NCBI GenBank assembly: GCA_021463145.1
Contig: JAJTWZ010000005.1
Coordinates: 1-64,000 of the forward strand
Direction of reading: 5' to 3'
Source: Blastocatellia bacterium
GTDB lineage: Bacteria > Acidobacteriota > Blastocatellia > UBA7656 > JADIYM01
Length of the DNA stretch: 64,000 nt
The notes under the pieces were generated by a model that had not been told where the DNA came from, made no database searches, and saw only the letters and a list, made by a program, of their open reading frames with translations. Position 1 is the first letter of the stretch, and each line of letters opens with the position of its first letter. The translations under genes and the position numbers were made by a program. This document shows, piece by piece, positions 153 to 33,411 of the stretch.

Positions 153-374
153 CCTTCGAGAGTCGTCACGCGCCGGGCCGCCGTACCCCCGCGCTTCGCA
201 CGATATTGTCTGAGACATGTCGCTCGAATAGCTGTATCCTAACGGCGGAACAGATGCCGGCCGGTCGGCCGTGCCATTTCCCTCGAATCAATCGACAACG
301 CGCTTCGGATTGGCCCTCCGGTCGCCCTGACCTGCCGACGCGCAAGGGCCGTGCTGACCCGGCCGAGTTTTCCT

Positions 375-14826: not shown

Positions 14827-14882
14827 CGGTGGCGCGGTCTCCGGTGGGGGAATTCGATGGATTCGAGGGTCGTTGACGGGGA

Positions 14883-15303
14883 GCGGGTCTGTAAGCCGAA
14901 TTCTGTCTCCGCCCCGAAGAGCGGGCGACGGTCATTCATCTAGGCCGGGGATTGCTCCACCGGCTCGAGCGACCTACCCGGAGGTCGTGTCCTCGCCCCG
15001 AAGGGTCCGGCACTTGGACGGGCCGTCCTGTTGACGCCTCCCTATTTGGTCTTGCACCGCGAGGAGTTTACCTAGCCGCCGAGTGTCGCCACCGGCGCTG
15101 GTGGGCTCTTACCCCACCGTTTCACGCATCACCTGTTCCCTCTTTCGAGAGCCATCGGCTGCCCTGTTCTCTGTTGCACTTGTCGTCGGGTTGCCCCGCC
15201 TGGCCGTTAACCAGCCCGCTGCCCTTTGGTGTTCGGACTTTCCTCCCGCTTCCGGAGCCTTGGCCCCATCCGCCGGCGACCGTCCAACCCACTCCCTGTC
15301 AAC
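14883..15303 (-). ncRNA. rnpB: RNase P RNA (bacterial type A)
   Basis: Reading the minus strand, the conserved blocks appear in the right order: GGAGGAAAGTCCGAACACC near the 5' end, GGCAACCCGACG, GTGCAACAGAGA, GGTAAACTCC, GTGCAAGACCAAATAG, AGATGAATGAC and the 3' block ACAGAATTCGGCTTACAG. Length of about 420 nt fits a type A RNA, the catalytic subunit that matures tRNA 5' ends. Ends are estimated from the P1 pairing and the promoter. Open frames on either strand here are shadows of the RNA. Confidence 0.95.
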
Positions 15304-15962: not shown

Positions 15963-17831
15963 ATGATTGTCAGACGTCCCCGTCTCCGCGCCGGCTCCGT
16001 GTCCGTACGAACAATGCTGGCTATCGGCGCTGCTTTTTCCATCTGCATCGGCCTGGTTCCGGCAATGGCGCAGAATGGAGGGGCGAAACCGGTCGCTCAC
16101 GACCGATCCGTGCGGATCATCCAGGGGCACCCGAAGGTCGTCAAGCTCAAGGGCAAGGCCTCGTCTGGCGGTCAGAAAGACATGACCTTCGAGGTCACCG
16201 TCTTTCCGCAGCACGGCACACTGACGGCGGTCGACAGCGACAGGGGCCGGGTCACCTACACTCCGGATGCGGATTTCAGCGGCGAGGACCGGTTCAGCTT
16301 TACGGTCAACGACGGCGTCGCGACCAGCGATCCGGGAGTCGTGATCCTCACCGTCTACAAGCGCGGCGAAGCGCCGACTGGCCCGATGCTTACGGCGGAC
16401 GAAGTCCGGACTATCGTGCAGAACGCGGCGATTCGCCTGGCCGACTCGAGCGCCGTCATCGCGATCGTCGATCGCGCGGGCCGGCCTCTGGCGGTATACA
16501 AACGGACCGGCGCCAACAAGAATGACGTCGAACGCGCGCTCGCGCTTGCCCGGACCGGCGGGTTCTTCAGCAACGACGCCGCGCCGCTCTCGTCGCGCAC
16601 CGTCCGTACGCTTGGCGGCGTCCACTTTCCCCCGGGGATCCGCGACACCGGACCGTCGGACCTTTACGGTATCGAACTCACAAACCGGGGCTGCGATTTC
16701 AACGTCACCTACAATCCTGGCAAGGAATACCCCGTCTACACGAATCTCGACGGCACGGGCCCGGGTCTCGGAATCGGCACCGGAAAGCCCGACTTCTTCG
16801 ACAACGAGGGAAGACTCGTGGATCCGGGTGGCTTCCCGATATACAAGAACGGCCGCGTTGCAGGCGGAATCGGCGTCACGGTGGCTCCTCCCGGCAATTT
16901 CGGAACGCAGGGCGTCAACCCGCAGGTGACCGCAGCGGAATTCGCATCGTTCCAGGCGTCGCTCTCGCTGGGCGGACCGCGACTGCCGCTTCCTCCCCCG
17001 GGGCGCGTAATACTTGGCGGCATCGAGTTACCGTTCTCTCCCTTCCTCGATGCATTCGAAAAGGGCGAGCAGATTCCCACGCCCGCCGGTGCCGGTGCCG
17101 GTTCGGGAACGTTCGATCCCAACCGTTTCGTTTTCGGCCCGGTCGCGGGAGGCTTCGCTGCCGACGGGTGGCTCGTCGGGCCGCTCTCGGGTTCACGCCT
17201 TTCGGCGCAGCAGGTCAACCAGATCGTGATGAACGCCTTCAACGAGGCAAAGCGGACGCGAGCGGCGATCCGGTTGCCGCTCGGGTCGCCTACGTCGATG
17301 GTCATTGCGGTCGGAGACCTTGACGGCACAATTCTCGGCGTGTTCCGGATGCAGGACTCGACGATCTTCTCGATCGACGTGGCGATTACCAAAGCCCGCA
17401 ACGTGGTCTGGTTCAGCACGGAAGGCTCGCGCGACCTTCCCGGCGTGCCCCACGGAACCGCGATCACGAACCTCACCCTCTACTACGCCGGACAGCCGTT
17501 CTTCCCGATCGGCATCAACAACAGCGATCCGGGGCCGTTCTACGATCTCTTCCTCCAGGACGCGGCAAATCCGTGCTCTCAGGGTAGCCAGCCGGCCAAT
17601 CCGAATCAGAGCGGCATCGTATGGTTCCCGGGCTCCGCGCCCCTTTACACCGGAGGTCAGATAGTCGGAGGACTGGGCGTGTCGGGCGACGGCGTGACGC
17701 AAGACGACGTCGTAACGTTCGCCGGCACGCAGGGCTACGAGGCACCGCCCGAAATAAGGGCCGACCAGGTGATCATCCGGGGCATCCGCCTTCCGTACCT
17801 CAAGTTCAATCGGAACCCGAACGTACCGTAG
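15963..17831 (+). CDS. Exported GlcG/HbpS-like (DUF336) double-domain protein
   Basis: A 622-residue exported protein with a signal peptide ending near AMAQ (residue ~37). Residues ~45-130 form an Ig/cadherin-like module (FPQHGTLTAVDSDRGRVTYTPDADFSGEDRFSFTVNDG). Two GlcG/HbpS-like modules follow, at about 140-320 (starting LTADEVRTIVQNAAIRLAD, with GGIGVTV) and 415-610 (starting LSAQQVNQIVMNAF, with GGLGVSGDGVTQDD). HbpS and GlcG relatives bind heme or small molecules; whether this one does is inference from the fold and from its position as first gene of a cytochrome cluster. GTGAGG precedes the ATG, and the next gene begins 12 bases after the stop. Confidence 0.8.
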   Translation: MIVRRPRLRAGSVSVRTMLAIGAAFSICIGLVPAMAQNGGAKPVAHDRSVRIIQGHPKVVKLKGKASSGGQKDMTFEVTVFPQHGTLTAVDSDRGRVTYTPDADFSGEDRFSFTVNDGVATSDPGVVILTVYKRGEAPTGPMLTADEVRTIVQNAAIRLADSSAVIAIVDRAGRPLAVYKRTGANKNDVERALALARTGGFFSNDAAPLSSRTVRTLGGVHFPPGIRDTGPSDLYGIELTNRGCDFNVTYNPGKEYPVYTNLDGTGPGLGIGTGKPDFFDNEGRLVDPGGFPIYKNGRVAGGIGVTVAPPGNFGTQGVNPQVTAAEFASFQASLSLGGPRLPLPPPGRVILGGIELPFSPFLDAFEKGEQIPTPAGAGAGSGTFDPNRFVFGPVAGGFAADGWLVGPLSGSRLSAQQVNQIVMNAFNEAKRTRAAIRLPLGSPTSMVIAVGDLDGTILGVFRMQDSTIFSIDVAITKARNVVWFSTEGSRDLPGVPHGTAITNLTLYYAGQPFFPIGINNSDPGPFYDLFLQDAANPCSQGSQPANPNQSGIVWFPGSAPLYTGGQIVGGLGVSGDGVTQDDVVTFAGTQGYEAPPEIRADQVIIRGIRLPYLKFNRNPNVP

Positions 17832-17843
17832 GACCGAACCCCC

Positions 17844-19250
17844 ATGCTGACCCGGCACTCAACAGTACTGTTCGTCACCGCCGTCCTTGCCGGTGGCGCC
17901 TTCACGCTCGCCCAGACGAAGGCGGGCGATCCTCCCGCGGCGAAGCCGGCCGCCGCCCCGCAGGCGAAGCCCGCTCCGAAGCCCATTCCGCCAAAACCGG
18001 GGGTGCCGAGCAAGGGCCCCGGCGTGCGATTCCTTCACGAACACCATTCCGGGCCGACGCCAGTGCCGCGCAAGAAGGGCGAGACTCGCGACCTGACTTG
18101 CGCCACCTGCCACGCTTCTTCCGTCGCGCAGCCCGACACGAACCGTTACCCCGGTCCGGACCTGGTCAAGTACCCCGAGGCGGCGAAGTTCGCCCTGGAC
18201 GGCGACAGGATCAACAAGCTCGGCTTCGCGAAATCGCATTCGGCGTGCATCGAGTGCCACACGGAAATCGCGCCGGGTTCGAACCGCATGTGCGGAATGT
18301 GCCATCAGTCTCTTCAGAAACTGCGCGTTTTCCCGAACCCTGACGTGGAGTTGTCTCAATTCGCCGACCGGTACTCGCACAAGGCACACAAGGACTACTT
18401 CGACGGCAATCCCGAGCCGTCGAAGGTCTCCGCCTCGCACCGGGTGACCGACACTTCCTTTTTCTCGATCGGCTACAGCATGCCTGCAGCGGTCGAGAAG
18501 GGGCTGCGCTGTTCGGAGTGCCACTTCATCGACACCAAGGGACAGAAGATGAAGCTGCCGCAGCACGACGGATGCTTCGTCTGCCACGCAAAGCCCAGGA
18601 TCGTTCCGGAGAAGTCCGATACCTTCTGGAACAAATGCACCGGCTGTCACGCGAACATGGAGGCAAACAAGCCGACTGTCGACGCGACGCTCAAGCCGCC
18701 AAAGGACGCCGACCACGCCATCGCGGCGCTTACGATGCCGTTGCGCTACGTCGTAACGCCGACAGGCGCTGCCAATCCGGCTTTCAGGCACACAACGCAC
18801 GGCACGATGACACCCGACACGGGCAAGAGCGCCGGCAAGGCGCTGGAGGGCAAGGCATCGTGTCTCTTCTGTCACACTTCGACGGAACGTGCTTCCAACC
18901 GGACCCAGATGAACGCGTTCGCGGTCCGAAAGACGGACCCGCAGCTGCAGCAACCTCCCGCGACGGCGTGCGTCTCGTGCCACGTCCACGCAAAGCAGAT
19001 GAAGCCGGCAGCACCGGGCAGGACAGCACAATGTCTCGCGTGCCACACCAGGGCCGACGCCGCGAAGCCCGTTCCGGCAAATCATCTGCTCGCCGAGGAA
19101 CCGAAGCCGGCCGCAAAGCCCGACGAGACGGCTGCGCCACCGAAACCTGCGGCTACCGGCGCGAAACCGGATGCGGCAAAGCCTGCCGAGAAGGAGCCGG
19201 CTCCACAACCAAAACCTCCAAACACGCGCGAAACGCACCTCGTGCCGTGA
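17844..19250 (+). CDS. Nine-heme periplasmic c-type cytochrome
   Basis: A 468-residue exported protein (signal MLTRHSTVLFVTAVLAGGAF) with nine CxxCH heme-attachment motifs between about residues 86 and 400: CATCH, CIECH, CGMCH, CSECH, CFVCH, CTGCH, CLFCH, CVSCH and CLACH. Additional histidines in HEHHSG, HKAH and HTTHG could be distal ligands. The C-terminal ~55 residues are Lys/Pro/Ala-rich and low-complexity, possibly a tether or cell-wall/peptidoglycan-interacting tail. It is presumably an electron-transfer protein in the periplasm. No catalytic family is recognised. It sits second in the operon, 12 bases after the DUF336 gene. Confidence 0.9.
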   Translation: MLTRHSTVLFVTAVLAGGAFTLAQTKAGDPPAAKPAAAPQAKPAPKPIPPKPGVPSKGPGVRFLHEHHSGPTPVPRKKGETRDLTCATCHASSVAQPDTNRYPGPDLVKYPEAAKFALDGDRINKLGFAKSHSACIECHTEIAPGSNRMCGMCHQSLQKLRVFPNPDVELSQFADRYSHKAHKDYFDGNPEPSKVSASHRVTDTSFFSIGYSMPAAVEKGLRCSECHFIDTKGQKMKLPQHDGCFVCHAKPRIVPEKSDTFWNKCTGCHANMEANKPTVDATLKPPKDADHAIAALTMPLRYVVTPTGAANPAFRHTTHGTMTPDTGKSAGKALEGKASCLFCHTSTERASNRTQMNAFAVRKTDPQLQQPPATACVSCHVHAKQMKPAAPGRTAQCLACHTRADAAKPVPANHLLAEEPKPAAKPDETAAPPKPAATGAKPDAAKPAEKEPAPQPKPPNTRETHLVP

Positions 19251-19287
19251 GACAGTTCGAATCCGCCGGCGCCCTGGAACTGAAACG

Positions 19288-20175
19288 ATGAGCCGAATGC
19301 CAAAATTCTTCGCCCTCGCGCTCCTGCTCGGATCGGCAGGATGGCTCGCCATCGCAACTCGAGCTCAGTCGGGGACTCAACCCGCGCCGGCCGGCACGGG
19401 CGGACGCGCGTGGGACTACAGCTCGTTCAAGCACGCGGATCACGATGCCGCGCTACTGTCTACCGGGCAAAAGGCTATCTCCTGCGACGTGTGCCACAAG
19501 CGCGAGCAGTCTGGCACACAGCTCTTCTATCCGGGTCACGATGCGTGTATCCAGTGTCACGTTCCTCAGTTCACGACGCCGTCGTTCCAGATCTGCGCGG
19601 TCTGCCACACCGACGTGGCGAAAGAAGGAAAGGCCCTGAAGCCGTTCCCGGCCGAGCGCAAGGATTACGGAGTGCGGTTCGATGGAGCGAAGGACAAGAG
19701 CCAGCACCAGGTACACATGGACGTGCCGATGCCGGACGGCTCGAAAGTGACTTGCGTCGTCTGCCACGAGAATCGAGGCGCGAACCAGGCGTTTCCGGCT
19801 CACGCCGAGTGCTACGTCTGCCACACTCCTGGGGCGAACTCCGCCGCTGCGACGCCCGAACTGTCGAACTGCGCGGTCTGCCATCCTGGCCCGGCCGAAC
19901 CGAACAGCGAGATGAAGCGGCTCATTGCAACGCGCCGTAACGACGCGTTGCCCTACCGCTTCCGGCACCTCGATCACACGCGGGCGCTTGGCAACTCGTG
20001 CGTGGAATGCCATCGCGTCACACAGGACATTCACGTGGTCTCGTCCGGAACGAAGGAACATCGAGCCCGGCCGGCATTCAACTGCTACGAATGCCATCGG
20101 GGCGGTGGGAGGTCGAAAATAACGGAAACCTCCTGCGGCGCCTGCCACGGCATCATGGTTTTCCCGCCACTGTAG
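19288..20175 (+). CDS. Nine-heme periplasmic c-type cytochrome
   Basis: A 295-residue exported protein (signal FFALALLLGSAGWLAIATRAQ) with nine CxxCH motifs from residue ~65 to ~287: CDVCH, CIQCH, CAVCH, CVVCH, CYVCH, CAVCH, CVECH, CYECH and CGACH. Spacing and added histidines (FKHADHDA, FRHLDHT) resemble the FxHxxH pattern of cytochrome c3/c7-type modules, where such histidines are distal heme ligands. The ATG at 19288 precedes the signal peptide; the longer reading crosses the previous gene's end. It is 37 bases after the other nine-heme gene and is probably co-transcribed. Confidence 0.9.
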   Translation: MSRMPKFFALALLLGSAGWLAIATRAQSGTQPAPAGTGGRAWDYSSFKHADHDAALLSTGQKAISCDVCHKREQSGTQLFYPGHDACIQCHVPQFTTPSFQICAVCHTDVAKEGKALKPFPAERKDYGVRFDGAKDKSQHQVHMDVPMPDGSKVTCVVCHENRGANQAFPAHAECYVCHTPGANSAAATPELSNCAVCHPGPAEPNSEMKRLIATRRNDALPYRFRHLDHTRALGNSCVECHRVTQDIHVVSSGTKEHRARPAFNCYECHRGGGRSKITETSCGACHGIMVFPPL

Positions 20176-20318
20176 GCCGCCGCACTGCGGCTGCGCCGGC
20201 GCAACGGTGGCGGCCTCCCGCTCGAGCGTGGCCGCCTCGAGTCGCTCGCTGACCCGTAGACGGCGCACTCACGAATGGCGTCCGAAGCAGGCACTCGCGA
20301 GACTGGATCGCTTGCAAG

Positions 20319-20348
20319 TTGACATTCTGGAATTTGCGCCTCTAGCAT
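20319..20348 (+). promoter_or_regulatory. Candidate internal promoter before the tetraheme cytochrome
   Basis: A perfect TTGACA and TAGCAT with an 18-base spacer. It predicts a start about 140 bases before the tetraheme gene. The 320-base gap 20176-20496 contains no gene; it begins with an imperfect GGCCGCC/GGCGGCC stem that may end the upstream transcript. Confidence 0.5.
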
Positions 20349-20496
20349 GACGGGCGGGTTGCTTCGGCGCCCTCCCGGTCCCGAAACACGAACAGCCGGA
20401 AGCCACGCGAGCGTTGCCGTTCGCGTCGGACGTCCGGAGGCGAGGCAGTCCACTCCTGCTTCGCACTCACAACAATCTCACCGGAGACCAGACTCG

Positions 20497-21024
20497 ATGA
20501 AATTCAAGGCCGCCTTCTGTGCTTGCACGCTCGTCCTATTAGCCGGGCTGTCCGTCCACTTCGCCATTTCGACATCGGCGTCGGCCCCCCTGCAGGCCAA
20601 GACCGACTACTCGAAGGGGTATCCGCCAAAGGCGCCAGGTGCCTCGCACCTGGATCTGCCCAACCCGATCCCACTCGGTGACCCGAAGACCAGCGATCAG
20701 TGGGGCCTTGACGACAAGTGGGGGATTTCGAACCTCACCCACCAGAACCATTCCGAGAAGCACAAAATTTCGTGCGCAACGTGCCACCATACTAACGGCA
20801 AGGAGAACGCCGCCCTCACCGAAGACGTCGAGCGCTGCGTCAACTGCCACAAGGCCGAAGGCGACGAAAAGAATCCGACCAATGCTGACGGTGAGGAACT
20901 GAACGTGAAGAACGCCTTCCACCTTGGCGTCGCGGGCTGCATCAACTGCCACGAAGCCGAGATGAAGAAGAATCCGAGTTCCACCGCCGTGACCTCCTGC
21001 GCCGGCTGTCATCAGTCGAAGTAA
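20497..21024 (+). CDS. Tetraheme cytochrome c3/c7-like protein
   Basis: A 175-residue exported protein (hydrophobic signal AAFCACTLVLLAGLSVHFAI) with four CxxCH motifs in the C-terminal half: CATCH, CVNCH, CINCH and CAGCH. The LTHQNHSEKHKISC segment supplies candidate distal histidines as in class III cytochromes c. Such small tetraheme proteins usually shuttle electrons in the periplasm between inner- and outer-membrane complexes. The ATG is at 20497, with GGAG upstream. It precedes the cytochrome maturation genes and is separated from them by a strong hairpin. Confidence 0.9.
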   Translation: MKFKAAFCACTLVLLAGLSVHFAISTSASAPLQAKTDYSKGYPPKAPGASHLDLPNPIPLGDPKTSDQWGLDDKWGISNLTHQNHSEKHKISCATCHHTNGKENAALTEDVERCVNCHKAEGDEKNPTNADGEELNVKNAFHLGVAGCINCHEAEMKKNPSSTAVTSCAGCHQSK

Positions 21025-21100: not shown

Positions 21101-22666
21101 ATGACATCGTCCAGGAATCCGGAGTTCGACACCCAGACCGAGCCGCAGCCGAAAGCCGCCGCGGCGGGCAGGATCACGAGCGCGATAGATCGTTTTCTTC
21201 GCCTGCTCAGTTCCGTGCCCTTCGGTATTGCGCTGCTGATGTTGCTCATCCTCATGAGCATGACCGGCATGCTGATCCTGCAGACGAACGTCGACGGGTT
21301 CGCCGAATACTACGCGGCGCTCCCACCGTCGAAGCAGATCATGTACACCGATCCGATCGTCCGCATCCTGCAGAAATGGACGGGTGCGGATTTGCGCGGC
21401 GTCAACATCCTTTCACTCGTCGACATTTACCGATCGTGGGTTTTCCTCGGGCTCCTCGCGGTCCTCAGTCTCAACATCGTTCTCGCGTCGATCGATCACT
21501 TTCCGGGAGCGTGGCGTTACGTCCGCAGGAAGAAGCTCACGGCGACGAAGCAATACGCGAAGACGCGCGACTTCAATTCGATCATTGCCAGCGACGCCTC
21601 GGATGGCGAACCGCTGCAGATCGCGGCGGCGTGCCGCGCGAACGGACTCGAGCCCACGATCACCTACGAGCCGTCGAGAACTACCGTTTTCGCCGAGCGC
21701 AACGCCTGGAATCGTCTGGGCGCCTACTTCGTCCACGTCGGGTTGCTCGTGATCTTCCTGGCCGGCTTCGTTACCTCGAAATGGTCGCACAACGGCAGCA
21801 TTACTCTGCAGCCTGGCGGCGAAACGGCCACGATGCAGGGGATTTCACACGACCTCGACCAGGTAAAGGTCGATCAATTCGCATTGCCCTTTCTCGTCGA
21901 GTGCACGGACATTCAGCAGACGCTCATCCGTCCCGAGGGCGGACTCGAGAGCAACAACACGGTCGATTGGTTCACCCGCGTGCGCATCACCGACCGCGAG
22001 CTCGGTCAGGTGCTTGAAGGCGACGTTCACATGAACAGGCCGCTCGACTACCGCGGCTATCGATTCTTCCAGTCGAGCTATCAGCCGGTCTCGCGCGCAC
22101 GCAGCGTTACCCTCGACGTAACGACTTCCGGCGGCGCAACCGAGACCGTCAGTCTGATGCGGGGCGGTGTCGCGACGCTGGGCGACGGAACCAGGATCCG
22201 TTTCGCGGACTTTCTTGGCAATGCCCGCGGAGGGCCCGGCGCCGAGGATTACAACGACCCCGTCGCGAAGATTCAGGTACTGCCCGCCAACGCCGGCGAG
22301 AACGCCGTGCCAACGACTATCGAAGCGCGCCCGGCCGCAGCGACGGCAGGCGCGGCTACGGCGCCGGTACAAGCGGTGCTGACCGGGTTCGAGAAAGTTG
22401 GCGCGAGTCACACTCTGTCGGTTCAGTACGACCCGGGCGCCTGGATTTTCTACATCGGGTCGGTGCTGTTGATCGCCGCTCTTGCTTCGGTATTTTTTGC
22501 GTCGCATCAGCGCGTGTGGATTGTCATGGATCGCGATTCCGACGGCGAGAGGAAACTCTTCGTCGGCGGACACACGAATCGGAACCGTCCGGCTTTCGGC
22601 CGGCGTTTCGCGGAACTCGTTGCGGCGCTCGGGGGCCCGTCGACGGTTCGCGAGGAGAACTCATGA
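21101..22666 (+). CDS. resB: ResB-like System II cytochrome c maturation protein
   Basis: A 521-residue ResB/Ccs1 family membrane protein. It has transmembrane segments near residues 37-58 (GIALLMLLILMSMTGMLIL), 108-130, 208-225 (GAYFVHVGLLVIFLAGFV) and 448-468, with a large periplasmic domain between the last two. With CcsA it forms the System II complex that exports heme and attaches it to CxxCH apocytochromes. This fits the many cytochromes next to it. Its stop codon overlaps the ccsA start (ATGA), so the two are translationally coupled. The N-terminal ~30 residues are polar and cytoplasmic. Confidence 0.9.
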   Translation: MTSSRNPEFDTQTEPQPKAAAAGRITSAIDRFLRLLSSVPFGIALLMLLILMSMTGMLILQTNVDGFAEYYAALPPSKQIMYTDPIVRILQKWTGADLRGVNILSLVDIYRSWVFLGLLAVLSLNIVLASIDHFPGAWRYVRRKKLTATKQYAKTRDFNSIIASDASDGEPLQIAAACRANGLEPTITYEPSRTTVFAERNAWNRLGAYFVHVGLLVIFLAGFVTSKWSHNGSITLQPGGETATMQGISHDLDQVKVDQFALPFLVECTDIQQTLIRPEGGLESNNTVDWFTRVRITDRELGQVLEGDVHMNRPLDYRGYRFFQSSYQPVSRARSVTLDVTTSGGATETVSLMRGGVATLGDGTRIRFADFLGNARGGPGAEDYNDPVAKIQVLPANAGENAVPTTIEARPAAATAGAATAPVQAVLTGFEKVGASHTLSVQYDPGAWIFYIGSVLLIAALASVFFASHQRVWIVMDRDSDGERKLFVGGHTNRNRPAFGRRFAELVAALGGPSTVREENS

Positions 22667-24216
22667 GCACCATCAGTCCAGTCGACGCCAGGGCTTTCCA
22701 GAGCCGCAATCTCGGTCCGGCGTCGCGCCTCTTCGAATGGGCGCCAGTCGCCGTTCCGCTTCTCGCGGCTGTCGCCATAGTTTTTGCGCGAATCCAGTTG
22801 GGCGAGTCGAAGCACTTCACCTACGACGCCGCTCTGATCGTGCTTGCTCTGGTCTGTTATCTGTTCGCCGCGATCATCGGCCTGCTGGAGCTCTACGCCG
22901 ACCGGCAGATGCTCGGTCGGTGGGGCCTCTGGATGGCGGCGTCCGGCCTTGGTTTCAACGCAGCAGCGTGGGGAACGCGCTGGGTCGCCGCCGGAGACCG
23001 CGAAGGCTGGATTCGATGGGCGTTCCGTTACGTGCCTTTCGCCAATCTTTACGACCTGTCGATCGCCTTTGCATTGGGCGCGGCGCTTGCGACTGTCATC
23101 GTCTGCAGAAAGAAGGAAGCCCGGATGGTGATGGGCGTTTCGATGCTCATGTCGGCGCTCATCGTGCTGCTCGCGATTTTCCTCGGCCGCGAATTCATCG
23201 ACCTGCCGCCGGTGCTCGACAGTTACTGGCGTCCGATCCACGTCGGAATCGCTTCGATCAGCTACGGCGTGGTCCTGGTCTGCTTCAGCATCGCGACGCT
23301 ATACCTGATCAAGGACGGCTTCAAGATCGAGGTGATGGCCGTCTTCGTGGCGTTGCTCGGCGCCGGGATCTACGCGTTCATCAATCGCATGGACCTGCTC
23401 TTCAGCGGAAAGTATTCGATGAGCGTCATCATGACCGACGCCGTCAGCGGCCAGACTGCGCCGCTTCCGTTGCGGGCAACCATTCCTCTTGCGGGGCCGC
23501 TGATGATAGGAGCGCTGATCCTGCTGGTCGGGGCGCTTTTGATTCTGGTGCGCGACCTCTATGTCGAGACGAGCGCGAACCGGAAGAACGCCTTCGCCGT
23601 GCTCTGGGGCTCGTTCGCTCTGCAGGTAGCTTCGATCGGCGCGGTCCTGCTCCAGATGCGCGCGCTCAAAGGGAACGTGGCGCCTGCCATCGACGTGGCG
23701 TCGCAGATCTCGTACCCGAAAGTGGCCGAGTGGCTCGGAGGCGCTCCCGCGAGTAGAGCCACGGAGTTCCTGGCTGCAAACAATTCGAGCCTGAGCATCA
23801 CCACCAATTCGAACCCCGTCGAGCTCGGTGCGCTGTTCACGCTCGCGGCCCTCACCGGTCTCGTGCTCCTGTTCGGCTTCAGAACCGAGCGCGTCGTCGA
23901 GCGATTGCCCTCGCTCGACCGGCTCGACGACCTCATGTACAAGACTGGCGCGATCGCGTTCATCGGGCTCGCCATGCTGCTCATCACCGGCGCCGTCTGG
24001 GCAAACGAATCCTGGGGCCGCTATTGGGGATGGGATTCGAAGGAGACTGGCGCGCTCGTGGCGTGGCTTGCGTACGCGGGGTTCCTGCACACGCGGATCG
24101 CGCACGGCTGGACCGGCCGCCGCAGCGCCTATTTCGCGATCGTGGGCTTCCTGCTCGTGATCTTCACCTACCTCGGCGTCAGCTATCTGCTGCCGGGACT
24201 GCATTCCTACGCGTGA
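22663..24216 (+). CDS. ccsA: CcsA/ResC-like cytochrome c synthase subunit
   Basis: A 517-residue polytopic membrane protein of the CcmC/CcsA heme-handling family. Near the C-terminus it carries the tryptophan-rich WANESWGRYWGWDSKETGA motif (WWD-type heme-binding loop), with conserved histidines before and after it (HVGIASISYG, HTRIAHGW). The N-terminal half adds several extra membrane helices, so it is longer than many CcsA proteins. The ATG at 22663 overlaps the resB stop by four bases, and the longer in-frame reading upstream is inside resB and rejected. It works with ResB on heme delivery. Confidence 0.9.
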   Translation: MSTISPVDARAFQSRNLGPASRLFEWAPVAVPLLAAVAIVFARIQLGESKHFTYDAALIVLALVCYLFAAIIGLLELYADRQMLGRWGLWMAASGLGFNAAAWGTRWVAAGDREGWIRWAFRYVPFANLYDLSIAFALGAALATVIVCRKKEARMVMGVSMLMSALIVLLAIFLGREFIDLPPVLDSYWRPIHVGIASISYGVVLVCFSIATLYLIKDGFKIEVMAVFVALLGAGIYAFINRMDLLFSGKYSMSVIMTDAVSGQTAPLPLRATIPLAGPLMIGALILLVGALLILVRDLYVETSANRKNAFAVLWGSFALQVASIGAVLLQMRALKGNVAPAIDVASQISYPKVAEWLGGAPASRATEFLAANNSSLSITTNSNPVELGALFTLAALTGLVLLFGFRTERVVERLPSLDRLDDLMYKTGAIAFIGLAMLLITGAVWANESWGRYWGWDSKETGALVAWLAYAGFLHTRIAHGWTGRRSAYFAIVGFLLVIFTYLGVSYLLPGLHSYA

Positions 24217-24228
24217 GGCCGGCGATAG

Positions 24229-25035
24229 ATGAGTGACGAAAATGCGAGCCAGGTGACGCATCTCGAGAACGAACTGCTCAAGTCGCGACTCGAGGCGCAA
24301 AAGAAAGACAAACTCGTCCATCTGCTCATCGGACTCGTCGCGGGACTCGCCGTCGGGTTCTATGGGGCGAACTGGATGAATACGAGCACGGGCAACGCAG
24401 CACGAGCCGCGGGGTCCGCGGTGGCCACGGCCGCACCGGCTGACGAGAACCACGATGGCCACAATCATCCTCCCGGAGAACATCCGTCTGGCGACGGTGG
24501 AGCCGCGATGCCCGAGGTGCAGGCAAAGCTGAAGGCCGCGGAGGACGATCCATCGAATTTCGTCGCTCAGATGGACGCGGCGGCCATGTTTCACCGGATC
24601 AACAACAACGACAAGGCGATCTACTTCCTGAAACGGGCCTACGCTCTCCGTCCGGACGACTACGACGCATTGCTGATCCTTGCGAACAAGACGTTCGACG
24701 CGGGCAGGTATGCCGACGCAAAGCCGTTGTACGAAAAGGCCCTCGCGATGCGGCCCGACGTGGTGGACGTGCGGACGGACCTGGGCACGACGCTCTTCCA
24801 GCTGGGTGACCTGGACAAGGCGATCGGTATGTTCGAGGCATCGCTCAAGCAGGATCCGAAGCACGAGTACACGCTGCAGAACCTGGCGGTTGTCGCTATT
24901 CAGAAAGGCGATACTGCAAAGGCCGAGGACGCGCTGCTGCGACTGGCGGCGGTCAACGGCGGGAACCCGTCGCTCGGACCGCTCCGCAAGGACCTCGACA
25001 CGTTGAAGACGACGGGCAAAATCCCGACGCATTGA
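24229..25035 (+). CDS. Membrane-anchored TPR protein, possible cytochrome-assembly factor
   Basis: A 268-residue protein with an N-terminal coiled-coil-like polar segment, one transmembrane helix at about residues 28-46 (LLIGLVAGLAVGFYGANW), a His/Gly/Pro-rich linker (DENHDGHNHPPGEHPSGDGG, a possible metal-binding stretch) and three to four TPR repeats (for example YFLKRAYALRPDDYDALL, AKPLYEKALAMRPDVVDVR). TPR proteins such as CcmI and NrfG hold apocytochromes for heme attachment, and the position 12 bases after ccsA supports a similar role. It starts with GGCGATAG, a weak ribosome binding site, so it is likely translated as part of the operon. Confidence 0.85.
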   Translation: MSDENASQVTHLENELLKSRLEAQKKDKLVHLLIGLVAGLAVGFYGANWMNTSTGNAARAAGSAVATAAPADENHDGHNHPPGEHPSGDGGAAMPEVQAKLKAAEDDPSNFVAQMDAAAMFHRINNNDKAIYFLKRAYALRPDDYDALLILANKTFDAGRYADAKPLYEKALAMRPDVVDVRTDLGTTLFQLGDLDKAIGMFEASLKQDPKHEYTLQNLAVVAIQKGDTAKAEDALLRLAAVNGGNPSLGPLRKDLDTLKTTGKIPTH

Positions 25036-25506: not shown

Positions 25507-27981
25507 ATGCCCCAAGAACTTGAGCAACGGCGTGCCGTCCTCGAGGCGATTCAAAGTGTCGCCGCGATCAAGGACATCACGGCGCAGCACGATGGACACT
25601 TCGAGCACGAGATCGACCTCGAAGTCATCGTCTACGGGCGGAATTACAACGGCAAGAAAGTTGGTCCCTACGTCCGCCTGCTGGTCTACAGCGACGGCGA
25701 GGAAGTCATGCGCGAGGGCGAGTGGGGCGGCAACACCTTCTATGTCGTCGTCGAGGGCCAGGCCGACATCTTCGTCACCACCGAGGGACGCGAGACGCAC
25801 GTCGCACAGATCTCCGCCGGCGACATCCTCGGCGAGATGTCGATCCTTGCCGGCGTCCCCCGATCCGCTACCGTGCGCGCGCCCGCCGGCGGCACCGTCA
25901 AGATGCTCGAGGTGCAGCGGCCGGCGCTCCGGTTGCTGCGAAAGCTGCCGCACTTCGGCGAGGCCCTAGACCGGTCCTACCGGAATCACGGCCGCAGCCA
26001 GATCATCCAGGTACTAAACTCGGTCAGCCACCTCGCACCCGAGACCGTCAGGCAGATCGAAGCGATCTCGCAGTTTCGGGTCCTGGGCAAGGGTCACGTG
26101 CTCTTCCACCCGGGCGAACCGGTCAAACGCGTCTATGTAGTCAAGTCCGGCTGGCTGCGCCTCTCGCCTCAGCAGAAGACATCGATGCTCGTCGCGCCGT
26201 CTGGCGACGGGAAGATCTCCTGGGGCGACCGTCCGTCGTGGGATCTGCCGTCTCCCGACAGCTACTTCGGACCGTCGAACGCTTTCGGTCTGGATGGCGT
26301 CATGGCCGACTCTCAGTGGCAGCACACTGGGGTACTCCTTGGTCGAACCGAACTGCTTGAAGTTTCGATCGCCGAGTTGCGCAATCATCCCGAGCTCATC
26401 GAGATACTCGGCGGCTCGCTTCGATCCCTCAACATCAAGAGCGGCACCGTGAAGCAGGCGACCCCGGCGCCGATCGCCGCCTCTCAGCGTGAGCTAATCG
26501 CGACGGGCGTTATCGACGGCACGAACCTGCTGCTGATGGACATGGAGCTGTGCGTGCGTTGCGGCAACTGCTCACTGGCGTGCCAGCACCAGCACGGGAA
26601 CTCCCGGCTCATGAGGCGCGGCATCTCGATTACGCGGCCGAAACGCCTGACGAAGAACGCTCCAATCCAGTACCTGCTCAATCCGTCCGTCTGCATGCAC
26701 TGCAAGGATCCCGAATGCATGACGGGTTGTCCGACTGGCGCGATAAGCCGCTACACCGGCGGCTACGTGGACATCACCAAGGAGACCTGCATCGGGTGCG
26801 GAGACTGCGCGACGCAGTGCCCGTACGACGCCATCTCGCTCATTGCGCGGCGCGGGAAGCCGCCAGCTGCCACGTCGCTGATATCGGATTGGTTCAGCAT
26901 CGCGGCTCCCCCGGCCCCTCCGTCGGTCGAGGAAGTCGACGACCTCGTGGCGGTCAAGTGCAACCTCTGCTCCAACACGCCGCTCAATCCGAAGGGCGCT
27001 GCTACCCGAGCGTACAGCTGCGAAGAGAACTGCCCGACCGGCGCGCTGCTCCGCGTGGACCCGGCGGCTTACTTCTCCGAGATCGGGAACATCCAGGGCG
27101 TCGTCTTCCGCGACGAAACGCATATCGTTTCGAAACACACGTCGCACGTCGACCCGAAGAAGCGGATGCTTCACGGCCTTGGCGTGCTCTCGACGGCCGC
27201 TCTTGTCGCTCTCAGCCTCGCATCGCTGTGGCGGTTCGGACGCGACCTGCCGATCGTGGGTTCGTGGCTGAACTTCTATTGGGCGACGGGAATCGTCGGA
27301 CTCGTCGCAATAGCGGTCGTGATGCTCTACCCGGTGCGCCGGCAGATCTTCCGCAAGCGCGTCGTTCCGCTTCGGTACTGGATGCTGACGCACGCATATG
27401 CAGGCGTCATCGCCGGCGTCCTCCTGCTGATGCACGGAGGCACGCGTGGCGGCGGCGTGCTTACGACCACCCTCATGATCACGTTCGATCTCGTGATCCT
27501 GACGGGATTGTGGGGCATCGCTACCTATTACATCGCGCCCCGGATACTTACCCGGATCGAGGAACAGCCGCTTCTGATCGACGATCTGCAGCTCCGCCGC
27601 AGCGAGTTGATGAACGAGATAGCGGACACGATCGCGACGGCATCCGAGGCAACTCGCGCGGCCATCGAGAAGAAGGTACTGCCGCACATCCTTTCGTTCG
27701 AGTTTCTCGCCCGGCAGATTTTCCGTCGCGAGCATCTGCGCGATCTGATCGACTCGACGCGCCAGCACTACGCGGCTCTTGCGCAGACGTTGCCTGAAGA
27801 GGAGCGCACCCGCTTCCTGGATGACGTCGAGAAGGCCGCCATGATGCGACGAGTCGACGCGCTGATTTACCTCCATCGCGCCCTCAAGATGTGGCTGGCG
27901 CCGCACGTGCTGACCACTTCGTTGATGCTCGCGTTGATGATCGTCCACATCGTCCAGGTGATTTACTTTGCCGTGAGGTAA
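25507..27981 (+). CDS. Fusion: two cNMP-binding domains, polyferredoxin, membrane domain
   Basis: An 824-residue protein. Residues ~60-150 and ~195-310 are cyclic-nucleotide-binding (CRP-type) domains; the first has GGNTFYVVVEGQADIFV and GDILGEMSILAGVPRSATV, close to the phosphate-binding cassette. Residues ~348-525 carry four [4Fe-4S] cysteine groups like DmsB/HybA electron-transfer subunits: CVRCGNCSLAC, CMHCKDPECMTGCP, CIGCGDCATQCP and CNLC..CEENCP. Residues ~555-824 hold about five transmembrane helices with membrane histidines (LTHAYAG, LLLMHGG, LMIVHIVQV) that could ligate b-type heme. No DNA-binding domain follows the cNMP domains. It probably moves electrons between quinone or cytochromes and cytoplasmic carriers, with ligand control. 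The ATG at 25507 has GGGAGG upstream. Confidence 0.85.
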   Translation: MPQELEQRRAVLEAIQSVAAIKDITAQHDGHFEHEIDLEVIVYGRNYNGKKVGPYVRLLVYSDGEEVMREGEWGGNTFYVVVEGQADIFVTTEGRETHVAQISAGDILGEMSILAGVPRSATVRAPAGGTVKMLEVQRPALRLLRKLPHFGEALDRSYRNHGRSQIIQVLNSVSHLAPETVRQIEAISQFRVLGKGHVLFHPGEPVKRVYVVKSGWLRLSPQQKTSMLVAPSGDGKISWGDRPSWDLPSPDSYFGPSNAFGLDGVMADSQWQHTGVLLGRTELLEVSIAELRNHPELIEILGGSLRSLNIKSGTVKQATPAPIAASQRELIATGVIDGTNLLLMDMELCVRCGNCSLACQHQHGNSRLMRRGISITRPKRLTKNAPIQYLLNPSVCMHCKDPECMTGCPTGAISRYTGGYVDITKETCIGCGDCATQCPYDAISLIARRGKPPAATSLISDWFSIAAPPAPPSVEEVDDLVAVKCNLCSNTPLNPKGAATRAYSCEENCPTGALLRVDPAAYFSEIGNIQGVVFRDETHIVSKHTSHVDPKKRMLHGLGVLSTAALVALSLASLWRFGRDLPIVGSWLNFYWATGIVGLVAIAVVMLYPVRRQIFRKRVVPLRYWMLTHAYAGVIAGVLLLMHGGTRGGGVLTTTLMITFDLVILTGLWGIATYYIAPRILTRIEEQPLLIDDLQLRRSELMNEIADTIATASEATRAAIEKKVLPHILSFEFLARQIFRREHLRDLIDSTRQHYAALAQTLPEEERTRFLDDVEKAAMMRRVDALIYLHRALKMWLAPHVLTTSLMLALMIVHIVQVIYFAVR

Positions 27982-27990
27982 CCCCGCGCA

Positions 27991-29481
27991 ATGGCGACGT
28001 CCAAGTTCATCATCATTCGGCGCGACCTGGAGGTCGATCCTACCGCGGTCGAGGGCGATGGCCTTTCGATCGGGCGCCTGCTCGCCAACGACGTGACGCT
28101 CAATCACCCGTCGGTGTCGCGCACGCACCTGGGTATCAGGCAGATCTCCGGCGACTTCTGGGTCACGAATCTTTCGCAAGGCAACGGTACGATCCTCAAC
28201 GGCGCTATCGTCGAGAGCGCGCCGCTTGCGGCCGGCGACATCCTTCAGGTTGGGCCGTTCTACGTCCACGTTGCCTTTCCTGGCGATGTGCTCGAGTTGA
28301 CGATTGACTTGAGCATGAATCCGATGGCGGCCGAAGGAGGCGGGACCGGCCTGCTCCCATCGGCCGACGCCTCATCGCCTGGAGCGGCGGCGGCCGCGCC
28401 GGCAGATCCGGCGCACTCGGCGCAGGCCGCCAGGCCGTCGCAGGGCGGCACCCGCCGGCTCACCAACAAGACCGGAATGCTCACCGGCATGCTCGCTGCG
28501 CCCGAGGAATTCGCGCTGAAGGTCTTCTGGGACAAGCGCAAGCGGGACGCCGGCAAGGTGGCCGAGCGCACGCCACTCAAACCGAACCTCATGAAGGGCC
28601 GCCTCGGAAAGGCCAGATTCAACTGGCGGTCGACGTCGGACCTTCGCAGGCCGTGGGCAACTAGTCTGTTCGTCTGGGGCGCGATCCTGGTGACGGCCGC
28701 ATCCGTCGTGTCTGCGTTCGCGTTCACGGACTTCTACGCGCCGGGCCCCCTCGCGACCGCTCACGTGCGCGATTCGCTCGCACACCCGGACGCCTTAGTG
28801 GCCGTAGCGGTGCAACCCAACGCAAACTCCTGCACCACTTGTCACAGCCTGACGCAGTCGATGGACTCTCGCTGCTCGCAGTGCCACACGACCACCGCCT
28901 TCACTTCCATATCGTCGGAAGAGCATATGAATGCTGGCGTCACGTGCGGCGATTGCCACGGCAAGGAGCACCGCGGCGATGTCTTCGCGAAGATCGGCGC
29001 CGCCGACTCGTGCGTTGCCTGCCACCGCGAAGGCTACGCCTACTGGAGCCCGACCCTGAAGAAGTCAATCGCTCTCGCGGTTCCGCACGGAGGCTCGTCG
29101 CTCGGGTATCCCGTTGCGGACGGAAAGTGGACCTGGCCCGGTTGGTCCGAAGAGCGCTGGTCGTCGCGTTCGTTGCCGAAGAAGGCGGCCGATTACGACA
29201 TCAAGGGGCAGTTCCACATCATTCACGTGGCGAACGGCGGACCCAGCCAGCGAGTCGCCTGCTCGGATTGTCATACGAAGGGCTTCGACACGGCTTCGAT
29301 ACTGGCCGGTGTCCGCGAGTCCTGCTCGGCGTGTCACGCCCAGAGTTTCGGCGGCAAGTCAGACGCGCAACAGGCTGCGGTCAAGGTTCAATGCATGTCC
29401 TGCCACGGTCAGCACGGGGGCGAGAAGGCGTCGCTTGCGGTGCGCCAGTCGCAGCGCATTCACGCCGAAAAGGCGAAGTAG
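27991..29481 (+). CDS. Fusion: FHA domain, transmembrane helix, seven-heme cytochrome
   Basis: A 496-residue protein. Residues ~25-90 form an FHA phosphopeptide-binding domain with the classical signature SIGR, SRTHLG and NGTILNG. A low-complexity Ala/Pro/Ser linker and basic segment follow, then one transmembrane helix near residues 224-246 (LFVWGAILVTAASVVSAFAF). The C-terminal part (residues ~275-475) has seven CxxCH motifs: CTTCH, CSQCH, CGDCH, CVACH, CSDCH, CSACH and CMSCH. The expected topology is FHA in the cytoplasm and hemes in the periplasm, joining phosphothreonine recognition to electron transfer. It follows the polyferredoxin fusion by nine bases, so they are surely one operon. 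No kinase gene is in the window. Confidence 0.88.
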   Translation: MATSKFIIIRRDLEVDPTAVEGDGLSIGRLLANDVTLNHPSVSRTHLGIRQISGDFWVTNLSQGNGTILNGAIVESAPLAAGDILQVGPFYVHVAFPGDVLELTIDLSMNPMAAEGGGTGLLPSADASSPGAAAAAPADPAHSAQAARPSQGGTRRLTNKTGMLTGMLAAPEEFALKVFWDKRKRDAGKVAERTPLKPNLMKGRLGKARFNWRSTSDLRRPWATSLFVWGAILVTAASVVSAFAFTDFYAPGPLATAHVRDSLAHPDALVAVAVQPNANSCTTCHSLTQSMDSRCSQCHTTTAFTSISSEEHMNAGVTCGDCHGKEHRGDVFAKIGAADSCVACHREGYAYWSPTLKKSIALAVPHGGSSLGYPVADGKWTWPGWSEERWSSRSLPKKAADYDIKGQFHIIHVANGGPSQRVACSDCHTKGFDTASILAGVRESCSACHAQSFGGKSDAQQAAVKVQCMSCHGQHGGEKASLAVRQSQRIHAEKAK

Positions 29482-29545: not shown

Positions 29546-31225
29546 ATGAGAAAGTCGCAACTCCTCGTCACGCTCCTGATGCTCGTCGTGCTTGCGATGG
29601 CGGGTATCGCGTCGCGTCTCGCCGTAAGCTCATTGGGCGCAGTGCCCTGGTTTGGATGGATAGGCCTCGTCACAATGATGGTGGCAATGGGGTTTGCGTT
29701 CATTATTTTCGACGAGTACCGCGAGCGTGGCCGCGTCACGCACATTATCCGCGAGGCCGAACTTGCCGCCGCCGAACGGGCGCGCGCCGCCGCCGAAGCC
29801 GGTCATTCGGCGGATACGATCTCGTCGCTTCACAGCGACGGTCCGTCTTATCCGCATCCCGTGATCAACACCGCGACGTGCATCGGGTGCCACGCTTGCG
29901 TCGATGCCTGCCCTCATGACGTTCTGGCGATCGTCAACGGTGTCTCTACGCCCATCGCGCTCGACCAATGCATGGAGGACACGAGTTGCCAGGTCGAGTG
30001 CCCCACGAGCCCGAAGTCCTGCATCGTCGTGAACACGACCAAGAAGATCCCCGAGCGCAAGGTGCCGAAGCGCGACAACCGGTTCATGACGAACGTTCCG
30101 GGGATCTACCTGATCGGTGACGTCTCGGGCGTTCCGCTCATCAAGAACGCCATCAACGAGGGCGGCTCGGTGGTCGACTTCATCGCCGAGGAGTTGAAGG
30201 CGAAGCCTCCCTCGGGTGCTGCGGAGTACGACACCGTCATCGTCGGCGCCGGGCCCGGCGGACTCTCGGCAACTGCGATGGCCAGGCAGCGGGGACTTCG
30301 TTACCTCACGATCGAGCAGGACAAGGTCGTCGCGACGATCCAGGCCTATCCGGCTGGAAAGTACGTGTTCTTCAAGCCCGACACGGTCGAGACGAAAGGT
30401 GGCATCGAGTTGCCGGGTATCGGAAACTCGAAGGAAGCGATGATCGGTTCGTGGCTCGACACGATGAAGCAGCTCGACCTCAAGATCAACGAATACGAGA
30501 CGGTGAAGAGCGTGAAGACCGACGGCGACGTTTTCGTGGTCCGAAGCGACTCGGACAGGACGAAGCAGAGCGCCGAGTACAGAACCCGGACGGTTGTCAT
30601 CGCCGTAGGAGGACGCGGCACGCCAATGCGCCTGCGCGTCGAGGGAGAGGATCTGAAACTCACGGTAACGCCAAGCGCCCCGGTCATGGCTCCGTTCTGC
30701 GTAAAATGCGGCCTGCCCCGAACGACGGAGGATCCAGCCTGCGCCTCGTGCGGGAGTGCGTATCCGACGACGGTTCCGCCCCCGTTCGAAGACGAGAAGG
30801 TCAAGTACCGGCTGAGCGATCCGAACCTCTTCAAGGGCAAGCATTGCATCGTCGTAGGCGCCGGCAACTCGTCGATCGAGGCGGCGGTGGATCTGGCGGC
30901 CTACCGCTCGGAGGACGGCACTCAGATCGTCGGCTGGCGGGACAACATCGTAACGCTCGTCATCCGCAGCGACTTCAAGGGCGATCTGAAACTTGGCAAC
31001 AAGATGCTCTGTTACGAGTGCATCGACGAAGGCAGGATTCGGGTGCACTTCAGGAAGACGATCAAGGAGATCCGCCCTGACGAGGTCATGTTGATGAACG
31101 CGCGCGAACGCGACGCGTCGAAGGCCAAGGCGACCGATACCATCCAGAACGATTACGTCTTCGCCCTGATCGGGGGCGACAAGCCGACGAAGTTCCTCGA
31201 GAGCATGGGAATCCAGATCGGCTAG
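29546..31225 (+). CDS. Membrane ferredoxin-flavoprotein oxidoreductase (YpdA/TrxB-like)
   Basis: A 559-residue protein. Two N-terminal transmembrane helices (residues ~6-28 and ~35-57) are followed by a ferredoxin domain with CIGCHACVDACP and CMEDTSCQVECP (residues ~112-155). A Rossmann FAD/NAD domain starts at VIVGAGPGGLSATAMA (~231) and a second dinucleotide motif lies at VVGAGNSSIEAAVDLAA (~433). Between them is a rubredoxin/zinc-ribbon-like insertion, CVKCG..CASCG (~388-405). The AYPAGKYVFFKPDT stretch resembles YpdA-type reductases; no TrxB-style CxxC redox pair is seen. It may pass electrons between NAD(P)H and the polyferredoxin fusion. ATG at 29546 has AAGG upstream. It is the last gene of the locus. 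Confidence 0.82.
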   Translation: MRKSQLLVTLLMLVVLAMAGIASRLAVSSLGAVPWFGWIGLVTMMVAMGFAFIIFDEYRERGRVTHIIREAELAAAERARAAAEAGHSADTISSLHSDGPSYPHPVINTATCIGCHACVDACPHDVLAIVNGVSTPIALDQCMEDTSCQVECPTSPKSCIVVNTTKKIPERKVPKRDNRFMTNVPGIYLIGDVSGVPLIKNAINEGGSVVDFIAEELKAKPPSGAAEYDTVIVGAGPGGLSATAMARQRGLRYLTIEQDKVVATIQAYPAGKYVFFKPDTVETKGGIELPGIGNSKEAMIGSWLDTMKQLDLKINEYETVKSVKTDGDVFVVRSDSDRTKQSAEYRTRTVVIAVGGRGTPMRLRVEGEDLKLTVTPSAPVMAPFCVKCGLPRTTEDPACASCGSAYPTTVPPPFEDEKVKYRLSDPNLFKGKHCIVVGAGNSSIEAAVDLAAYRSEDGTQIVGWRDNIVTLVIRSDFKGDLKLGNKMLCYECIDEGRIRVHFRKTIKEIRPDEVMLMNARERDASKAKATDTIQNDYVFALIGGDKPTKFLESMGIQIG

Positions 31226-32461: not shown

Positions 32462-32521
32462 TAGTTCCCCACGCCCGTGCGGCGCACCCCGTCGGACGAA
32501 ACGGGCAGCGTTTCGGATCCG

Positions 32522-32775
32522 CGACCGCGGAGCGGTCGATAAAATAGCCGTGGGTCGCGCGCGGGCGAGTGCAACGAGCCTACGCGCGCGACCCGCGGAA
32601 ACCCCGCCCTATCGCGCCGACCGCGGAGCGGTCGAATCCGCGACCGCGGAGCGGTCGGATCCGCGACCGCGGAGCGGTCGATGAAATAGCCGTGGGTCGC
32701 GCGCGGGCGAGCGCAGCGAGCAAGCGCGCGACCCGCGGAACCGCCCGCCGCGTAGTACCGACCGCGGAGCGGTCG
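32522..32775 (+). repeat. REP-like palindrome cluster, left side
   Basis: Five copies of CGACCGCGGAGCGGTCG (7-bp arms, 3-nt centre) at 32522-32538, 32618-32634, 32641-32657, 32664-32680 and 32759-32775. Copies one and four are each followed by ATAAAATAGCC or ATGAAATAGCC and a larger hairpin with 12-bp arms (GGGTCGCGCGCG / CGCGCGCGACCC). Confidence 0.9.
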
Positions 32776-32842
32776 CATTGCTCCCAGCTAAGACGCAACT
32801 TCTTCCGCGCTCAACTCGATAATGGGCCGGAGGGAGCAAGAC

Positions 32843-33295
32843 ATGGCACGAACACTCATCGAAATCTACACGCACATCGTCTTTTCGACGAAGGGGCGGG
32901 CAAACACTATTCACCTGGAGATCGAAGCTGAATTGCACCGCATTATTGCGGGTATCATCGCGAATCTCAATTCTCGGTGCCTCACCGTCAACGGCACCGA
33001 GAACCACGTTCACACACTCGTGTCGCTTGGAAAGACGACGGCCTTGAGCAACCTGGTTCGCGAGGTGAAAAAGGGATCGACAATCTGGCTCAAGCGCCAG
33101 GGTGCGGTCTCAAGGGCCTTCAACTGGCAGGATGGATACGGGGGGTTCTCTGTCGGGAAATCGGATCTGCTGGCTGTCAAAAAGTACATCGCTGACCAGA
33201 AGCAGCACCACCAGCGCATTTCCTACGAGGAGGAGTTCATTTCACTGCTCGAGGACAACGGCGTCGCCTACGACGCTCGATACCTTTGGGACTGA
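32843..33295 (+). CDS. tnpA: IS200/IS605-type Y1 (HUH) transposase
   Basis: A 150-residue single-domain Y1 transposase that cuts and joins single-stranded DNA at hairpins. The start is typical (IEIYTHIVFSTKGR), the HUH pair is in ENHVHTLVSL (residue ~61), and the catalytic tyrosine lies in the helix KKYIADQKQHHQR near residue 115. The family C-terminus (YDARYLWD) is intact, so the gene looks full length. The ATG at 32843 has GGAGGG upstream. No TnpB accessory gene accompanies it. The flanking REP-like palindromes are its probable substrates. Confidence 0.93.
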   Translation: MARTLIEIYTHIVFSTKGRANTIHLEIEAELHRIIAGIIANLNSRCLTVNGTENHVHTLVSLGKTTALSNLVREVKKGSTIWLKRQGAVSRAFNWQDGYGGFSVGKSDLLAVKKYIADQKQHHQRISYEEEFISLLEDNGVAYDARYLWD

Positions 33296-33300
33296 AGGTT

Positions 33301-33411
33301 CGACCGCTCCGCGGTCGGATCGATGTGGATGTGGGTTCCGCGGGTCGCGCCGTGGCTCGTTGCACTCGCCACGCGCGACCCACGGCTATTTCATCGACCG
33401 CTCCGCGGTCG
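33301..33411 (-). repeat. REP-like palindromes, right side, inverted
   Basis: Two copies of CGACCGCTCCGCGGTCG (33301-33317 and 33395-33411), the reverse complement of the left-side core, plus one composite unit with a hairpin (GGGTCGCGC / GCGCGACCC) and the GGCTATTTCAT link. The first copy begins six bases after the transposase stop codon. Confidence 0.9.

Follow-up and report, generated by a model that had tools for sequence, protein, structure and literature searches.

The window (the whole 64,000-nucleotide stretch of a Blastocatellia genome analyzed here) contains a three-gene module that, judging from sequence comparisons, is very likely an electron conduit. It consists of a core subunit with two cyclic-nucleotide-binding (CNB) domains, followed by an FHA-transmembrane-heptahaem cytochrome c and then a flavoprotein with two transmembrane helices and a ferredoxin domain. 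Our preferred reading, held with modest confidence, is that the module forms a ligand-gated transmembrane conduit between NAD(P)H or ferredoxin and multihaem cytochromes, with cNMP and phosphothreonine sensor domains built into it. The domain and cofactor-ligand anatomy, its invariance, the gene order, the gene fusions, and the retention of the CNB1 pocket are supported by the alignments; from these we infer complex formation, the direction of electron flow, the identity of the ligand, and gating.

The core gene occupies positions 25507 to 27981 on the forward strand, exactly the open reading frame singled out by the initial annotation, and encodes an 824-residue protein with the order CNB1, CNB2, four predicted [4Fe-4S] clusters, and five transmembrane helices with a bis-haem b motif. 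A good ribosome-binding site, GGGAGGTTAC, lies just ahead of its ATG, and the start methionine is the same as in homologues, of which 53 are full length, ruling out a chance open reading frame or a frameshift artefact. A Pfam scan of the protein returned cNMP_binding (E = 1.4e-24, in two stretches) and Fer4 families (E-values down to 7e-11) and no HTH or other DNA-binding domain. This bears out the earlier description of two CRP-type sensors lacking a DNA-binding domain, which prove to be two tandem CNB folds, and the absence of any HTH family rules out a CRP/FNR-type transcription factor. Sites found in a promoter and terminator scan were no more numerous than in shuffled sequences. The module extends beyond the single gene initially annotated, running on through the next two genes to position 31225; these partners, encoding the FHA-cytochrome and the flavoprotein, did not appear in that annotation.

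CNB1 (25522-25992, forward strand; residues 6-162) has a canonical cyclic-nucleotide pocket. It scores 86.3 bits against PF00027 (gathering score 27.5), and its modelled structure matches the cGMP-bound CNB domain of MlotiK1 (Z = 15.4). The phosphate-binding cassette, LGEMSILAGVPRSAT at 25828-25872 (forward strand; residues 108-122), is complete (LGEMSILAGVPRSATV), with G109 present in 53/53 homologues and E110 and R119 in 52/53 each; in one remote group, Gln replaces the CNB1 Arg. CNB2 (25993-26454, forward strand; residues 163-316), the second PF00027 stretch, has the CNB fold, with structural matches to the CNB domains of HCN2 and KCNH2, and neither the cassette Glu nor the Arg is present in the alignment. 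It has its own invariant residues among the homologues (G261, R280, and E282). Together, CNB1 and CNB2 match the regulatory subunits of PKA and PKG (Bcy1, Z = 14.1 over 243 residues). The initial annotation had proposed checking for the arginine-glutamate pair of the cassette and took the loss of all ligand-binding residues across homologues to indicate a purely structural role. The pair is lost from CNB2 and kept in CNB1, and because CNB1 retains both residues, this comparison does not refute the sensor reading. The sequence comparisons thus lean somewhat toward control of the conduit by a ligand acting through CNB1. We dropped an attempt to call the ligand as cAMP or cGMP from the residue after the cassette Arg, since N, S, T, and A all occur there in the homologue alignment. 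A potential source of cyclic nucleotides is encoded in the window's own genome, in the form of two class-III nucleotidyl cyclases. A multi-PAS GGDEF-EAL protein at 351-3347 (forward strand) indicates that this organism has cyclic-di-GMP signalling as well.

The polyferredoxin (26518-27066, forward strand; residues 338-520) matches Fer4 families. The core protein has exactly 16 cysteines, all within residues 349-509 and invariant in 53/53 homologues; they fall into four groups, as the initial annotation had counted. Its comparison with DmsB/HybA-type polyferredoxins fared less well, as this part of the core scores far below the curated NCBIfam cutoffs for DsrO (65.9 vs. 200), DmsB (63.5 vs. 214.1), and HybA (47.6 vs. 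263). The Fe-S region was modelled by AlphaFold at low confidence, so the model gives no readable geometry between the clusters and the CNB domains.

The membrane cytochrome b domain (27148-27978, forward strand; residues 548-824; pLDDT 85) has five long helices in the AlphaFold model (residues 550-577, 590-606, 620-644, 651-684, and 797-823), the last of them preceded by a long helical insertion, in agreement with the earlier estimate of about five transmembrane helices with histidines. Two predicted haem b ligand pairs of the form H-x13-H lie on the third and fifth helices: H629/H643 (27391-27435, forward strand) and H800/H814 (27904-27948, forward strand), each invariant in 53/53 homologues. 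Among remote profile matches, the double H-x13-H is kept in 20/21, the exception being a match split over the end of an open reading frame. We take this spacing on two helices to be the classical one for two stacked b haems, and by its predicted ligands the membrane domain has the bis-haem b signature of two helices each with H-x13-H. Its commonest Pfam match, PF01292, is weak (19/53 members, best E 4.5e-5), and the Sphingobium homologue scores 22.1 bits against a cutoff of 30.1. A PDB sequence search with the membrane-domain profile gave chance matches only. In PDB fold searches, the results for the whole core model were filled by CNB matches, while the membrane domain folded alone returned only unrelated helical bundles, which proves nothing about novelty. 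With a weak PF01292 match and no convincing PDB match, the NarI-type membrane subunit of the initial annotation is not supported, and the domain is not recognisably NarI.

Partner 1 (27991-29481, forward strand), which starts nine bases past the core stop codon, encodes a 496-residue protein with an FHA domain, a transmembrane helix, and a cytochrome c part with seven CxxCH haem motifs. The FHA domain scores 49.8 bits against PF00498 (gathering score 20.7); residues G28, S43, R44, N70, and G71 are conserved at 90% or more, and R29 and H46 of the classical phosphothreonine site at less than 90%. The window's own genome has 73 matches to Ser/Thr-kinase domains, a potential source of phosphothreonine for this domain. 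Partner 2 (29546-31225, forward strand) combines two transmembrane helices, a ferredoxin domain with eight conserved cysteines, and a YpdA/TrxR-like FAD/NAD(P) oxidoreductase, which scores 132.6 bits against TIGR04018 (YpdA bacillithiol disulfide reductase; cutoff 339.9). We weighed a zinc-ribbon-like pair of CxxC motifs in the flavoprotein as a possible additional carrier and dropped the idea, as most relatives lack it.

Upstream of the core, on the same strand, lie genes for two nine-haem cytochromes c and a four-haem c3-type cytochrome (20497-21024). The first nine-haem cytochrome (17844-19250; nine CxxCH motifs, Pfam MtrC-like/C7) has a signal-peptide-like N terminus and is likely a periplasmic partner; the second (19288-20175) is of the c7/c3 type, with relatives near the module in many loci. 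These are followed by three accessory genes, also on the forward strand: ResB of the system II cytochrome c maturation pathway (21101-22666; PF05140, 9.9e-58), a CcsB/CcsA-type cytochrome c maturation protein (22663-24216; TIGR03144 above cutoff), and a membrane-anchored TPR protein (24229-25035) with relatives near the module in several loci. A 622-residue Big_9/Cadherin-HbpS-like protein is encoded at 15963-17831, and its relatives also occur near conduit genes in many loci. We found no outer-membrane MtrB/PioB porin in the genome and thus do not claim extracellular electron transfer.

The window has further features outside this region. An IS200/IS605-type transposase gene (32822-33295, within 32513-33400) is flanked by copies of the palindrome-like CGACCGCGGAGCGGTCG, five direct (32522-32779) and one inverted (33301). 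This element has 306 exact copies genome-wide vs. none of a reversed control, and together the two resemble a family of REP elements and the transposase that belongs to it. A class A RNase P RNA lies at 14876-15295 on the reverse strand, and no tRNA genes were found within the window.

Conservation was counted over the 53 full-length homologues, which are 42-57% identical to the core. Named relatives are nearly all from Acidobacteriota assemblies, many of them labelled Blastocatellia, Pyrinomonadaceae, or Chloracidobacterium. Blastocatellia, a class of the Acidobacteriota, includes the phototroph Chloracidobacterium; the core protein was found in 69 of 147 sampled genomes of this class and is encoded by a single-copy gene in the window's own genome. 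Loci for gene-neighbour analysis were picked on the core gene only, so the counts are not biased towards the partners. Directly after the core gene comes that of the FHA-cytochrome, in 58/58 loci that have room for it. The flavoprotein lies within 4 kb of the core in 37/46 loci and is not nearby in the other nine, suggesting that the electron donor may vary.

Gene fusions tie the same parts together in different ways. A single protein of roughly 1,050-1,180 residues combines the FHA-cytochrome with the flavoprotein in 12 loci, Chloracidobacterium among them, and Pfam identified FHA, haem c, ferredoxin, and Pyr_redox domains in all three of these fusions that were scanned. Hydrophobic stretches lie between the FHA domain and the haems and between the haems and the ferredoxin, which places the haems outside the cytoplasm and the FHA and flavoprotein domains within it. 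A different fusion, of the flavoprotein to CNB-CNB-polyferredoxin, occurs in other Acidobacteriota and on megaplasmids of Sphingobium (NZ_CP020539 and 11 more records). Both CNB domains are canonical in this form, which is followed by a cytochrome b on a protein of its own and by a multihaem cytochrome, with an FHA-like domain in most cases. The Sphingobium copy is annotated only as "cyclic nucleotide-binding domain-containing protein." Another Acidobacteriota genome has a HoxU/NuoG-like [2Fe-2S]/4Fe-4S domain ahead of CNB-CNB-polyferredoxin (L153:8149-10401), so that an input module of the hydrogenase or NADH type is attached to this sensor core. At a further locus (L160:13019-16559), a double-FHA protein and a Pyr_redox-FHA-[2Fe-2S] protein lie beside this core, and FHA domains thus recur at different places in the module. 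Constant across the arrangements are the CNB tandem, the four clusters, the bis-haem b, and the multihaem cytochrome. In the forms with a fused input domain, that domain is separated from the polyferredoxin by the CNB tandem. Overall, the canonical Glu-Arg pair is present in both CNB domains of 13 remote relatives whose genes are built differently: five with another arrangement and eight with the flavoprotein domain fused in front, in which the tandem appears to occupy the place expected for a gate.

Based on this anatomy, the cytoplasmic YpdA-like flavoprotein with its ferredoxin domain would exchange electrons with NAD(P)H and pass them through its Fe-S clusters to the four clusters of the core, and from there across the inner membrane via the two stacked b haems. 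The b haems would deliver them to the seven-haem periplasmic cytochrome of partner 1, which in turn may hand them to the upstream nine-, nine-, and four-haem cytochromes (17844-21024). Electrons might also flow the opposite way, and the quinone pool could connect to the chain at the b haems. One sensor input would be a cyclic nucleotide bound in CNB1, with CNB2 acting as a ligand-free structural arm in Blastocatellia, and the other a phosphothreonine-bearing partner bound to the FHA domain. Ligand binding could shift the flavoprotein relative to the polyferredoxin and thereby open or close electron flow. We put forward, tentatively and as a possibility that we do not hold to be the probable one, that a second messenger (through CNB) and protein phosphorylation (through FHA) directly gate electron flow between cytoplasm and periplasm, with the CNB tandem as a movable hinge between the input module and the polyferredoxin.

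The same conduit could also use its CNB and FHA domains for docking or assembly, either tethering the flavoprotein to the polyferredoxin or recruiting proteins, with no role as ligand gates. CNB2 fits such a role well: across Blastocatellia it lacks the ligand residues, yet it is always kept, with its invariant Gly, Arg, and Glu, and the loss of the CNB1 Arg in one remote group points the same way. A purely structural domain, however, would not need a Glu-Arg pair, and the CNB1 Glu and Arg are each retained in 52/53 homologues against a mean column identity of 54% across the core alignment, while the 13 relatives with other architectures have the pair in both domains. This disfavours docking, which we consider unlikely, though deserving of serious weight.

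Two other explanations assign the redox chain a different role. The core might be a quinol oxidase or quinone reductase similar to CbcL or MtoC, in which electrons pass between menaquinone and the b haems, with the Fe-S part as a side branch. The combination of bis-haem b and multihaem cytochrome c is indeed the CbcL layout (PMC6295460), and the nine loci without a flavoprotein nearby are consistent with it. Against this, the four clusters are invariant and fused input modules, either the flavoprotein or the HoxU/NuoG-like domain, recur, making the cytoplasmic Fe-S route the constant feature; we judge a quinone-centred enzyme improbable. Still further from our preferred reading, and very improbable, is a redox sensor that reports cluster or haem occupancy to partners via the CNB and FHA domains rather than conducting electrons. 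Both are signalling domains and the genome is rich in kinase-domain matches, but a sensor would not need a full chain linking NAD(P)/FAD with seven c haems, together with maturation genes and the cytochromes encoded upstream, and no output enzyme is fused to the complex.

The regulation of respiratory chains is mostly thought to act on the supply of substrate or the expression of genes. If, as the gated conduit would have it, redox proteins are direct targets of cAMP-type messengers and Ser/Thr kinases, electron flow could be switched at signalling speed, as in ion channels. Since the module is common in Blastocatellia and also occurs on proteobacterial megaplasmids, several organisms are open to tests of the idea by binding and electron-transfer assays.

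Parts of the module resemble several known systems. The tandem CNB fold with a canonical cassette in CNB1 is like that of PKA/PKG regulatory subunits; unlike these, the core CNB domains are fused to a polyferredoxin and a membrane cytochrome, CNB2 has no pocket, and we know of no kinase partner. CNB domains in non-transcriptional effectors also occur in SthK/MlotiK channels, mycobacterial Pat acetyltransferase, and family 2B encapsulins, all of which were search matches; to our knowledge, none of these carries electrons across a membrane. The four-cluster ferredoxin arrangement is like that of DsrMKJOP (DsrO), DmsB, HybA, and HydN, but the module has no catalytic Mo or hydrogenase subunit. Partner 2 belongs to the FAD/NAD(P) two-domain fold family of YpdA and thioredoxin reductase, from which it differs in carrying membrane helices and a ferredoxin domain.

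In function, the closest known analogue is the CbcL/MtrH/MtoC group of quinol oxidases of Geobacter and iron bacteria. There, as predicted for the present module, a bis-haem b domain of the inner membrane, HydC/FdnI-like in that group, works with a multihaem cytochrome c; by the features compared here it is a different family. In CbcL/MtrH/MtoC, a single chain has haem c motifs in its N-terminal half and a transmembrane cytochrome b in its C-terminal half, and the CbcL paper mentions neither a ferredoxin nor a cyclic-nucleotide domain (PMC6295460). In the present module, the haem c part resides on a protein of its own, the one with the FHA domain, and the core has two CNB domains and four predicted clusters, with no CxxCH motif in the core protein and all of its cysteines in the four Fe-S groups. 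The open-access literature, the only literature covered, yielded no account of an electron-transfer complex of this sort with an integral CNB or FHA domain, and such an absence is weak evidence. A transmembrane conduit of cytochrome b and multihaem cytochrome is already known, and the integral signalling domains would be the new variation.
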